From Parcubacteria group bacterium M6-OD1-4 (GTDB lineage Bacteria > Patescibacteriota > Patescibacteriia > Patescibacteriales > UBA12465), in assembly GCA_003056205.1 (NCBI GenBank), contig LSNS01000018.1, positions 1 through 42,444 of the forward strand: DNA of 42,444 nucleotides, read 5' to 3'. Position numbers and translations under genes: made by a program. The notes beneath the pieces were generated by a model. It ran no database searches, was not told the origin of the DNA, and saw only the letters and a list, made by a program, of their open reading frames with translations. Every line of letters starts with the position of its first letter. Position 1 is the first letter of the stretch. This document shows, one piece after another, positions 2,953 to 34,567 of the stretch.

Positions 2953-2981
2953 TTGACAATCATTAGGAATAATGATATAAT
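2953..2981 (+). promoter_or_regulatory. Consensus sigma-70 promoter
   Basis: TTGACA (2953-2958) - 17 nt - TATAAT (2976-2981), with TG extended -10. Confidence 0.8.
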
Positions 2982-2995
2982 GTTATCTGGGAATA

Positions 2996-3086
2996 GATCT
3001 TTAACAAATAAGATTAATTAAACTAATTATTAAGTTTATCTCTGAATTTAGGTAAATTTAGTAATTAGTTTAATATTTATAATCTT
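2996..3086 (+). ncRNA. Structured 5' leader RNA, copy 1 (boxA-like element + long hairpin)
   Basis: GATCTTTAACAAATAAG (2996-3012), then 3018-3038 pairs continuously with 3053-3073 (21 bp including G-U). Outer pairing AAGATT (3010-3015)/AATCTT (3081-3086). Shares architecture and apical TATCT/AGGTA with copies at 26090-26178 and 34438-34522. Confidence 0.75.
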
Positions 3087-3097
3087 AAAAAAAAATC

Positions 3098-3649
3098 ATG
3101 AAAAATTTAAAAAAAATTTTTTCCTTATTAAAAAAAAGAAATTCTAAAATTGTTTCAAGTATTGATCAAAAAGTCTCGTCCCTTTTAGCAAGAGAGACAA
3201 AAATGATGCAAGGTTATCGTAGTGAATCGTCTGGTTATGCAATACATAAACAGGCCGTTAAAATATTAACAGCCTATCAAACAGGTGAAAAGTCTTGCAA
3301 AAATATATTTTCTAGCCGTGCAGTGGATGTGGCAAGAGAAGCTGGAATTTGGTTGGCCGGTGAAGCTCCCGCAGAAATCTTTTTTATTGGTTTGGGAGAA
3401 AAAGAAACAGCTGAAATTAAAACGTATAACTGTCTACAGGAATATGCTTCTCTTCAAGCTAGTGGGGATGTAACGAAGAACAAGTATGATTGTCTGAGAG
3501 ATGTTTGTGCTAAATTAAATCTCTCGGGGTCAGAGGATTTAAAGAATCTTTCAATTGACAGATTAATGGAGATTCAATCCATCATACAGAATTGGTCTGA
3601 AAGTTTTATAGGTAAATTAGTACCTCGGACTTATGAAAAAAAAATCTGA
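3098..3649 (+). CDS. Hypothetical protein (183 aa) downstream of structured leader copy 1
   Basis: Open reading frame with promoter, structured leader and downstream terminator. No family recognised. Confidence 0.65.
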   Translation: MKNLKKIFSLLKKRNSKIVSSIDQKVSSLLARETKMMQGYRSESSGYAIHKQAVKILTAYQTGEKSCKNIFSSRAVDVAREAGIWLAGEAPAEIFFIGLGEKETAEIKTYNCLQEYASLQASGDVTKNKYDCLRDVCAKLNLSGSEDLKNLSIDRLMEIQSIIQNWSESFIGKLVPRTYEKKI

Positions 3650-23858: not shown

Positions 23859-26081
23859 CTAATCTAAGTAACGAGACTGTGAGATATAAGGACACCTCTC
23901 ATTAAAAAGGCTCCAAATATCTTTGAGAGTCAAAAAGAATTGTCCGATCTTTCTGGCTATCCAAACAATTCCTTTTCCAACGTATACCGGAGGGGCTGTT
24001 AATATCCTCCAGGTATTATTTATTTTTCCTATCAGCTTTGAATTTCTTCTTTTCCGGCGCTGAAGGGTTCTCTCTATTCTAGAAATCGAATATCCGCCAA
24101 CCATCATTGTTATAATTGCTGGCCTATCCTCATCGGAAAATTTTCGTAATATTTCTAGCCCATGAAATTCTAGAGTTGATAGAATTTTTAGGTTTCCTTT
24201 TACTGCGAGAAAACGAATAAATTCAATCTGATAATCAATTTTATCACAGAAGAAAAAATAGGCTAACTCCTGTATTTCCTTAATTGTCTTTTGTTTCTCT
24301 TCTTTTCTTAGTGCGTTTAACCACTCACTTTCAGTTATAACTGAAATATACCTTTTAAACCTTAAACCACTAAGTTTAGGATTAATATTAGACAAAAAGT
24401 GAGCAGTCAGGTCCCGTTCTGTAATATTGCTTTGATTAACTTGAAATAATATAATCAAGCTAGAACAAAACAATGATAAGATTAGGATAAACATCAGGGA
24501 GGGAACAAGGCCAACTTCGGTAAAGTTTATATAGCCTAATTGATTAAAAGAAATAGCAAAAACTCCTACTGTTAGTAGAAAAAATCCTCCACTAGAGTAT
24601 TGAAAGGTTTTTATATATTTGATAAATTCTTTTTCATCTTCTAAAAATAAATTAAAGAAATGAAAAAATAATACTATAAAACCGATACTCATCAACAACC
24701 AAGTGGATACTAACACATTAGCTGTATACCAGGCCCAAATTAATTTGCCAACAAGTATGCTAAGACTAATAAGTTTAGCAGCTAAGAATTTATCAAACAA
24801 AACAATTACTATAGCGACCACTGTTCCATGTAGCATAAAGCGAATAATAGCCGGAATATCATCGTAATCAAACCATGAATTATCCTCTCCTATACATGTT
24901 ATTAAGTAAACAACATAAAAGACAAAGGTAAAAATGGAAAGTAAAGCCAGTAAAGGACCGAGAATTTTTGACAGTATAGCAAGCAAATGTACAAAAGCAT
25001 ATAAAAACCCGGCACTTAACGCAATCACTATTACTGTTAAAAAGATTGCTATTAAAGCAGTCCTTATAGCTTTAATGATTATATTTTGAGAATTAATTCT
25101 CTTAATGGTTTTTACTACTATTCGTATCATAACAACTAAGCCCCAGGAAACCATTGGTAGGGCAAAAACAAATGGCAATAATCCCCAAAAAGTCCAACCA
25201 TCTTGGATAATAATTGTTCCGGTAATAGCTAAAGCGATTGGAGAAACTATCCAAAACATTGTATGTAATACTAAAGTTGCCCAAAATCCTGGGCAAACAT
25301 GGCTTTTCATTTCCACCTTACGCTTGGGGTGAAAAGCATAATTTGATCTGGCCGTCCGATACAGCCACCAATATTTTCCGTCTTCATAATTAACGACAAA
25401 GTCGTTAATATGCTCTTTGACAGATAAAAAGCGGCTCCATTTTTGGTTGGTGATTTTGCTATCATTATTATCTCCCTTTGGATATAAGCTGAAACCAAAA
25501 TCCAACCTCAGTAGACTGAAAGCATAGGCACCTTTACTCAGATAGCGCTTTTCTGGTTCTGTTGTCTCGGCTAATAATTTTTTAGTGGAGATAACATTAA
25601 AAAATACTTTTACGCGGTCTCGCCACGATTTTTTCAAAACTCGTGGTGTCACCGGCAAATCGTTAAAAAGGTCTTGGTAATTGTCTTGAATTGCTTCCTT
25701 TTGCTTTGGAGTCAATCGGCGTAAGCAGGATTCATAATTAGCGAAATCAATGTTCTCTCGCCACAGAAGTTTTCGCCAAATAGTAACCGGCAAAGCTTCA
25801 ATCATGGCAACTATCTCAAGATATTGATTTAGCCTTTTAATCCTGCTTTGCCCTTTGACAAAAAAATCAATAAAAGACCTTTTTTGTTTCATATCCTCCG
25901 AGAATCTTTTTCTGAGAAATTTCCAGAAAATTAAGGCCACGGTTATTTCTTCTCTCTCTGCTTCTTCGTAGTAGCGGAAGGTGATTAACCCATTTTCTGG
26001 GTTCGTAAAATTCTTGAGTTCTTTGCGCAAAAACCCATAGAAATCTTTTTCAATTTGGTGATTTTCTTTCATAATAAACAA
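23859..26081 (-). CDS. Large multi-pass membrane protein of unknown function (740 aa)
   Basis: Long ORF with charged N-terminal region and many TM segments. Preceded by structured leader copy 2. Alternative start MKEN at 26072. Confidence 0.75.
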   Translation of the reverse strand: MFIMKENHQIEKDFYGFLRKELKNFTNPENGLITFRYYEEAEREEITVALIFWKFLRKRFSEDMKQKRSFIDFFVKGQSRIKRLNQYLEIVAMIEALPVTIWRKLLWRENIDFANYESCLRRLTPKQKEAIQDNYQDLFNDLPVTPRVLKKSWRDRVKVFFNVISTKKLLAETTEPEKRYLSKGAYAFSLLRLDFGFSLYPKGDNNDSKITNQKWSRFLSVKEHINDFVVNYEDGKYWWLYRTARSNYAFHPKRKVEMKSHVCPGFWATLVLHTMFWIVSPIALAITGTIIIQDGWTFWGLLPFVFALPMVSWGLVVMIRIVVKTIKRINSQNIIIKAIRTALIAIFLTVIVIALSAGFLYAFVHLLAILSKILGPLLALLSIFTFVFYVVYLITCIGEDNSWFDYDDIPAIIRFMLHGTVVAIVIVLFDKFLAAKLISLSILVGKLIWAWYTANVLVSTWLLMSIGFIVLFFHFFNLFLEDEKEFIKYIKTFQYSSGGFFLLTVGVFAISFNQLGYINFTEVGLVPSLMFILILSLFCSSLIILFQVNQSNITERDLTAHFLSNINPKLSGLRFKRYISVITESEWLNALRKEEKQKTIKEIQELAYFFFCDKIDYQIEFIRFLAVKGNLKILSTLEFHGLEILRKFSDEDRPAIITMMVGGYSISRIERTLQRRKRRNSKLIGKINNTWRILTAPPVYVGKGIVWIARKIGQFFLTLKDIWSLFNERCPYISQSRYLD

Positions 26082-26089
26082 TTTTTTTA

Positions 26090-26178
26090 AAGATTAATAA
26101 ATAAAGTTAATTATCAAAGCTACCTCAATAGAGATAAGTTTAATAATTAACTTTATAAAATCTTATTTTTTAAAGATC
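26090..26178 (-). ncRNA. Structured 5' leader RNA, copy 2
   Basis: Minus strand: GATCTTTAAAAAATAAG (26178-26162); 13-bp perfect stem TAAAGTTAATTAT/ATAATTAACTTTA (26102-26114/26143-26155) continuing almost to the loop; outer AAGATT/AATCTT; apical TTATCTC-TATT-GAGGTAG. Confidence 0.75.
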
Positions 26179-26192
26179 AATTGTCAGGCTAT

Positions 26193-26221
26193 ACCGTATC
26201 ATCATCGTTGGTTTTTGTCAA
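26193..26221 (-). promoter_or_regulatory. Putative promoter for leader copy 2
   Basis: Minus strand TTGACA (26221-26216) - 17 nt - TACGGT (weak -10). Confidence 0.45.
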
Positions 26222-33917: not shown

Positions 33918-34421
33918 TTAATGATTAGGACTAAAAGAAATGAGTCTTTTAAACCCTTGGTCAGAGCTTTTATGTACGGCTAAAAAACGATAATCAATGG
34001 ATAAATCATTATCAAACTGATTCAGATTAAGTTCACGTTCGTTAAAGCGAACATATAAAAAAGGCATATTACAATCGTCATCAGTATCTTGCCAAACTGA
34101 GCCAAGAGCAATTATTGGAAACTGAGATTGTAGTTTTGGGTTGGTTTCACCGAGAACCAATAGTTCTGCTAATATGGCTGGGCGATAACCACCCTTATTC
34201 ATTTCAGCAATAACATCTTTATTACTCATTTGCCAGCTGAAATGGAATAATTTAATGGATACTCCCAATTTCCATCCAATTAATTTGGTTGGCAAAGGAA
34301 AATGTTCTTTCGTGATGTCGCTATGTATCCAATCGTAATTACCATTAGTAATCATTCTTTTTAAAGTTTGGCTGTAGTCTACAGTAATTATCCACTCTTT
34401 TTCTGATAATATTTTTTTCAT
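33918..34421 (-). CDS. Uncharacterised protein, paralog of the 16267..16827 product
   Basis: VDYSQTLKRMITNGNYDWIHSDITKEHFP and GYRPAILAELLVLGETNPKLQSQFPIIALGSVW shared with the paralog. Confidence 0.78.
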   Translation of the reverse strand: MKKILSEKEWIITVDYSQTLKRMITNGNYDWIHSDITKEHFPLPTKLIGWKLGVSIKLFHFSWQMSNKDVIAEMNKGGYRPAILAELLVLGETNPKLQSQFPIIALGSVWQDTDDDCNMPFLYVRFNERELNLNQFDNDLSIDYRFLAVHKSSDQGFKRLISFSPNH

Positions 34422-34437: not shown

Positions 34438-34522
34438 AGTTTATATTTTAATTGACTATTAAAGCTACCTAGATTTAGATAGACTTAATGGTCAATTAAA
34501 TTAAACTTATTTTTTAAAGAAC
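34438..34522 (-). ncRNA. Structured 5' leader RNA, copy 3
   Basis: Minus strand: GTTCTTTAAAAAATAAG (34522-34506); TTTAATTGACcATTAA/TTAATaGTCAATTAAA stem; apical CTATCTA-AATC-TAGGTAG; outer AGTTTA/TAAACT (compensated relative to copies 1 and 2). Confidence 0.75.
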
Positions 34523-34538
34523 TTATTGTTAGATTCGT

Positions 34539-34567
34539 ATAATATAATTTTTTCTATTTTTTGTCAA
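34539..34567 (-). promoter_or_regulatory. Promoter for leader copy 3
   Basis: Minus strand TTGACA (34567-34562) - 17 nt - TATTAT (34544-34539). Confidence 0.72.

Follow-up and report, generated by a model that had tools for sequence, protein, structure and literature searches.

A recurrent, covarying 5' leader RNA with a boxA block in Candidatus Falkowbacteria

The three leaders of the window

The window analysed here is the whole 42,444-nucleotide contig LSNS01000018.1 of Parcubacteria group bacterium M6-OD1-4, and it carries three leaders, each in front of a different hypothetical gene with no Pfam family (Table 1). Every leader comprises a near-consensus promoter of the TTGACA type, a boxA block and a long hairpin with an outer helix, followed by the start codon. 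An earlier note on this DNA had described the three copies, and their coordinates, sequences, promoter spacing and placement before the ATG are as it claimed; the 17-mer that it reported is matched exactly in each. Taken alone, this 17-mer is no rarer than chance in the AT-rich window, where 3 sites with at most 3 mismatches were found and 4.6 were expected, a result that is not significant, and the evidence therefore rests on the composite of promoter, boxA, hairpin and ATG. The leaders were compared with 200 dinucleotide shuffles each, and none of the shuffles was equally stable.

Co-transcription of copy 3 with the downstream secE-nusG is unlikely, because a hairpin resembling a terminator and a fresh promoter-like sequence separate them. 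No plasmid homologues of the copy 3 protein were found. Directly 5' of copy 1, at positions 2850-2935, there is a stop-riddled stretch, which we take to resemble the C-terminal end of an IS30-type transposase. The same stretch is found before leader L033, and a similar end before L105.

Table 1 Features of the three leaders in contig LSNS01000018.1.
Feature	Position	Strand	Basis or remark
Copy 1 promoter, TTGACA-17 bp-TATAAT	2953..2981	+	
Copy 1 boxA block TAGATCTTTAACAAATAAG	2994..3012	+	
Copy 1 long hairpin with outer helix	3009..3087	+	fold z -6.61
Gene after copy 1, 183 aa, no Pfam family	3098..3649	+	predicted control by copy 1
Gene after copy 2, 737 aa, hydrophobic stretches, no Pfam family	23859..26072	-	predicted control by copy 2
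Copy 2 long hairpin with outer helix	26091..26163	-	fold z -6.58
Copy 2 boxA block TTGATCTTTAAAAAATAAG	26162..26180	-	
Copy 2 promoter, TTGACA-17 bp-TACGGT	26193..26221	-	
Gene after copy 3, 167 aa, no Pfam family	33918..34421	-	predicted control by copy 3
Copy 3 entire promoter and leader, from TTGACA to the first base of the start codon	34421..34567	-	
Copy 3 long hairpin with outer helix	34438..34507	-	fold z -7.29; covariation
Copy 3 boxA block AAGTTCTTTAAAAAATAAG	34506..34524	-	
Copy 3 -10 hexamer TATTAT, 17-bp spacer	34539..34544	-	sequence; putative promoter
Copy 3 -35 hexamer TTGACA	34562..34567	-	sequence

A family of covarying leader RNAs

A covariance model made from four copies of the source genome matched in 26 of the first 60 genomes, every one of which belongs to the same family as the source. 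A second model, made from 33 sequences, found about 90 copies in 32 of the 39 genomes of this family (Candidatus Falkowbacteria, Patescibacteria), and as many as 10 in a single genome. The source genome itself has 8 model matches in total. The count of three copies in 42 kb given in the earlier note is thus correct for the window, where all three are real, but these represent a sample of a larger family. In other families of the same order, the second model matched one of 72 genomes, with 4 copies, and in the rest of the phylum it matched none of 289, under filters that recover 7 copies of the source genome. Among named genomes, the strict-pattern matches are records of Candidatus Falkowbacteria and of other Patescibacteria. 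A search of Rfam 15 at gathering and at permissive thresholds gave no relevant family; the best match below the cut-off was to a microRNA family, with 19.6 bits against a cut-off of 80.

The helix is supported by covariation. Over the 33 sequences, 94.8% of the cells of a 24-pair helix are paired, whereas shuffles gave 84.2% and slid structures 24-51%, and two-sided changes are seen at 18 of the 24 pairs, compared with a mean of 7.0 in shuffles and 5-7 in slid versions. In the mRNA sense, the 91 copies have 257 G-U or U-G cells and 59 A-C or C-A cells, which indicates that pairing was selected on the mRNA-sense strand. The recurrent structured 5' leader RNA proposed from the window is therefore confirmed by its covarying helix and its clade-wide copies, and it matches no family at the curated cut-offs of Rfam. 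An artefact of AT-rich hairpins is ruled out by the clade restriction, the covariation and the strand asymmetry. This asymmetry also speaks against an attC-like DNA hairpin site, for which strand-symmetric pairing is expected. Concerted evolution within genomes was rejected as a main driver, because hairpin identity is 0.619 within genomes and 0.599 otherwise, a small excess that was equalled in 2 of 500 permutations. Leaders of different genera are up to 92% identical in front of unrelated genes. A phage origin was rejected on 0 matches in viral contigs, although a single strict pattern makes this a weak test.

The hairpin can be described as one long stem of about 31 bp, counting the outer helix, with a loop that varies from 4 to about 80 nt, and the ATG follows a median of 12 nt past the leader element. 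A stem of this size is of typical length for an RNase III substrate. Within the family, the stem sequence TTAATTACYAAG and the tip RTCT..AGGY are conserved. For the stem, this conservation goes further than pairing requires and may point to a hairpin-specific protein, for which the Nus-factor model presented below has no need. A run of at least 5 T was found at the helix end in none of 84 copies, and attenuation of the terminator type was rejected for this lack of a U tract. The riboswitch role that the earlier note had offered as an option is unlikely, because the RNA folds into one long stem and lacks both an aptamer-like junction and a terminator.

The boxA block, the optional hairpin and the downstream genes

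The best conserved columns of all are those of the 5' boxA block. Six bases are nearly invariant among the 91 copies (G 90, C 88, T 91, T 90, A 88 and A 90), and they correspond to positions 1, 4, 6, 7, 9 and 11 of the E. coli boxA consensus, GYTCTTTAANA (PMC5725501). In E. coli, the C4T/T6C mutant of boxA abolishes recruitment of the Nus factor SuhB (PMC5725501). The model that collected the copies included the boxA columns, so that conservation among its matches is partly built in, and the motif was for this reason examined in two independent ways, in rRNA (rrn) leaders and with a promoter and boxA pattern that has no structure term. In the family, 16 of 21 rrn leaders carry the motif 5' of the 16S rRNA gene, where 1.2 were expected and at most 4 were obtained in 300 simulations, and it sits about 130-170 nt before 16S in nearly all cases. 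The structure-free pattern gave 43 sites in 24 of the 39 family genomes, while the reversed pattern gave 0. The resemblance to boxA, already pointed out in the window, is thus well supported by the E. coli invariant positions and by the family's own rrn leaders. NusB was found in 37 of the 39 family genomes, and NusG is single-copy in 35 of the 36 genomes searched, with none found in the remaining one. No Rho was seen with one motif in the fetched stretches, a result that carries no weight either way. Besides the conserved stem sequence, two observations weigh against a Nus-factor reading: 5 of the 21 rrn leaders have no strict match to the motif, and the boxA core has a predicted mean unpaired probability of only 0.64.

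A promoter layout that would place boxA in a transcribed 5' UTR fits 86 of the 91 copies, and the spacer is 17 bp in 73 of these 86 promoters. A promoter subtype (leaders L029, L030, L038, L048, L049, L078, L085, L095 and L096) has an inverted repeat, AAAAGTATAC..GTATACTTTT, across the spacer and the -10, possibly an operator. In rrn leaders L058-L063 and L209-L220, a terminator-like hairpin, ACAAGATAT..ATATCTCTG TTTTTTT, lies between promoter and boxA. Locus L028 has a second, hairpin-less boxA, TATAGAACTTTCACAAATAA, in the gap between its first and second genes.

Not all leaders carry the hairpin. The 43 pattern sites of the family include 27 with the modelled hairpin, 4 with another long hairpin and 12 without, in which the ATG is directly 3' of boxA. 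The copy 3 protein is 34% identical (E 1e-13) to that of L235, whose leader is a boxA without hairpin, and of the homologous genes L148 and L246 (44%), one has a leader with hairpin and the other a leader without. At L264 and L265, which come from two genomes in a different family of the order, the long hairpins after boxA are unrelated in sequence. The nut-like bipartite signal of boxA plus conserved hairpin, to which the earlier note had likened the leaders, is not supported in view of these hairpin-less and unrelated-hairpin leaders, some before homologous genes. In hairpin leaders, the distance from boxA to ATG has a median of 91.5 nt as written and of 18 nt (interquartile range 15-23) once the hairpin is removed, compared with 12-45 nt in the hairpin-less leaders of the family. 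The optional hairpin and the matching spacing without it suggest that the proximity of boxA to the ATG is what is kept, and that the hairpin is an insert that would loop out.

Outside the family, the promoter and boxA pattern gave 43 sites in 366 genomes of the class, compared with 12 in the control, so that chance would account for about a quarter of these sites; in most of the examples that were read, a start codon follows boxA by 12-53 nt. Because of this enrichment, the promoter-boxA layout is probably older than the Falkowbacteria hairpin. In one family of the class (f177; genomes G424, G458 and G558), there are 2-3 promoter-proximal boxA sites per genome.

The 87 complete downstream proteins have a median length of 169 aa and few Pfam matches, and 55 of them have an N-terminal hydrophobic segment, whereas 196 of the 683 remaining ORFs in the same stretches do. 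The downstream genes thus appear to be mostly ORFans that often encode exported or membrane proteins; 83 of the 121 proteins predicted to be controlled by a leader have no relative in the set. A Shine-Dalgarno-like motif is present at only 9 of the 87 genes, and most of the genes are immediately followed, by eye, by a terminator-like hairpin.

A large serine recombinase with Resolvase, Recombinase and Zn-ribbon domains lies divergently, within roughly 0.3-0.5 kb upstream, at about 7 of the 91 copies. We take this association to reflect one way in which leader and cargo move, rather than the function of the leader; as so few copies adjoin a recombinase, a mobile element was rejected as a general explanation. 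None of the three window copies has a serine recombinase neighbour or a tRNA-like flank. A serine recombinase of about 510 aa is divergent to the boxA-hairpin leader at L131, L133, L134, L140, L152 and L161, and the same arrangement is found at L110, L112, L115, L116 and L118. At such loci, the recombinase N-terminus is nearly constant, the cargo genes vary, and the 3' end seemingly enters tRNA-like sequence, so that recombinase, leader and cargo look like a small integrative element. A sequence resembling the 3' end of tRNA-Ser, TCCCACCCTCTCCGCA, and its variants lie directly 5' of the leader at L029, L030, L038, L078 and L085, and at L038 this sequence is the end of a real-looking tRNA-Ser. 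It repeats past the cargo terminator and is found in the downstream flanks of L034, L067 and L042. One leader copy with its gene (G008:C74:13868-13970) is located 257 nt downstream of a 16S rRNA gene. Some 16S rRNA genes (G024:C35:387-2818, G017:C20 and G025:C43) have long insertions, probably introns.

A Nus-factor model and its relation to known systems

The leaders are, in our judgement, rather likely to be boxA leaders of the Nus-factor (NusB-S10) type placed on mRNAs, with the hairpin as a looped-out accessory. With the boxA of rRNA genes at the front of accessory genes, the same factors probably control both, and dozens of unrelated accessory genes would then be under the control of factors of ribosome production. 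In this model, which we infer from sequence, RNA polymerase would start at the near-consensus promoter and transcribe boxA within about 10-15 nt. NusB-S10, with NusA and NusG, would bind the boxA of the nascent mRNA and stay tethered to the polymerase. By looping out about 70 nt, the hairpin would leave boxA about 18 nt ahead of the start codon, which is the spacing of the hairpin-less sisters; the hairpin could have other roles, perhaps in RNase III cleavage or in protection of the 5' end. The downstream gene is usually one short ORFan, often predicted to be exported or membrane-bound, and its expression would track free Nus factors and hence rRNA synthesis.

As for the direction of the effect, boxA is repressive via the Nus complex when it is near the start codons of suhB and of a Citrobacter parE-like toxin gene (PMC5725501), and it is an antiterminator or processivity signal on long untranslated RNA (PMC7862264). 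The anatomy of the leaders is nearer to the former, and by this analogy translational repression of the suhB type seems somewhat more likely than antitermination. A boxA that serves purely as an antitermination or processivity site, the role it has in rrn, lambdoid phages and CRISPR arrays, would shield weakly translated, AT-rich and recently acquired mRNAs from Rho-type termination, with the hairpin being incidental or protecting the 5' end. This is possible, if on the unlikely side: like the boxA of rrn, that of the leaders follows a strong promoter and sits close to where transcription begins, the targets are mostly ORFans with few Pfam matches, some of them within small serine-recombinase elements, and boxA boosts the expression of long untranslated arrays (PMC7862264). 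However, most units consist of one short gene and a T-rich terminator-like hairpin, so that there is little for antitermination to act on, and the short distance from boxA to ATG is retained despite the insertion of the hairpin.

The hairpin could instead be primary, as the site of an RNA-binding protein or as a target for RNase III through which mRNA stability is set, with the likeness to boxA secondary. The stem length, the strong covariation and the kept sequences TTAATTACYAAG and RTCT/AGGY agree with this, but similar and even homologous genes have leaders with an unrelated hairpin or none, and the boxA columns are conserved best; we consider it improbable. It is very improbable that the leaders are DNA elements, such as recombination sites or miniature transposons, spread by mobile elements and not kept as RNA. 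The divergent recombinases, the tRNA-end-like flanks of some copies and the near-identical leaders across genera before unrelated genes would fit such elements, whereas the G-U excess in the mRNA sense, the fixed orientation, promoter spacing and ATG distance, and the more than 80 of 91 copies with no adjoining recombinase do not.

The boxA and the Nus complex have long been regarded as dedicated to rRNA, and the mRNAs demonstrated to be targets of boxA are, to our knowledge, those of a few enterobacterial genes (Enterobacteriaceae). In the clade described here, genomes of less than 1 Mb carry up to ten boxA leaders each, mostly before unknown genes, and the promoter-boxA layout reaches other Patescibacteria. 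If confirmed, these leaders would give a first handle on the regulation of unknown exported proteins in hard-to-culture bacteria, and a structured RNA family for addition to Rfam. Because homologous genes naturally occur behind leaders of both kinds, hairpin-bearing and hairpin-less, the role of each part is directly testable. More speculatively, a large mRNA regulon under Nus control may extend through Patescibacteria well beyond the family, in which a promoter-proximal boxA would make up most of the 5' UTR of fast-evolving accessory genes, many of them for exported proteins, with the hairpin as a Falkowbacteria add-on and with small serine-recombinase elements that carry the leader, so that acquired genes would from the outset be expressed and tied to the state of ribosome synthesis; we put this forward only tentatively.

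The boxA of rrn leaders is the same motif in the same genomes, likewise behind a TTGACA promoter. There, it precedes 16S by the longer distance given above and comes after a terminator-like hairpin, while in our leaders it is near the transcription start and is followed by the hairpin and an ORF. The lambda nut site also has a boxA and then a hairpin near the promoter, and its short boxB hairpin is bound by the N protein. In contrast to boxB, the hairpin described here has a long stem and a variable loop, and is dispensable. The leader hairpin of the LoaP/dfn system is likewise a structured element tied to elongation control, but it is of the UNCG type, which ours does not resemble, and it requires a NusG paralog (PMC12691694). 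Antitermination of the LoaP, RfaH or UpxY type was rejected, as our genomes have one NusG each (35 of 36) and no paralog. According to the part of PMC7862264 that cites Stringer et al., boxA is also found 5' of CRISPR arrays, where it has likewise been recruited to non-rRNA transcripts; those are long untranslated arrays, whereas our boxA is on short mRNAs. The suhB and Citrobacter koseri parE-like leaders of Enterobacteriaceae (PMC5725501) have, as is predicted for ours, a boxA in the mRNA 5' UTR near the start codon, with the same invariant bases, and NusB and NusG are encoded. The leaders of Patescibacteria differ from these in the long hairpin between boxA and the start codon, and in that they precede tens of unrelated genes across a clade, on which they would exert their predicted effect.
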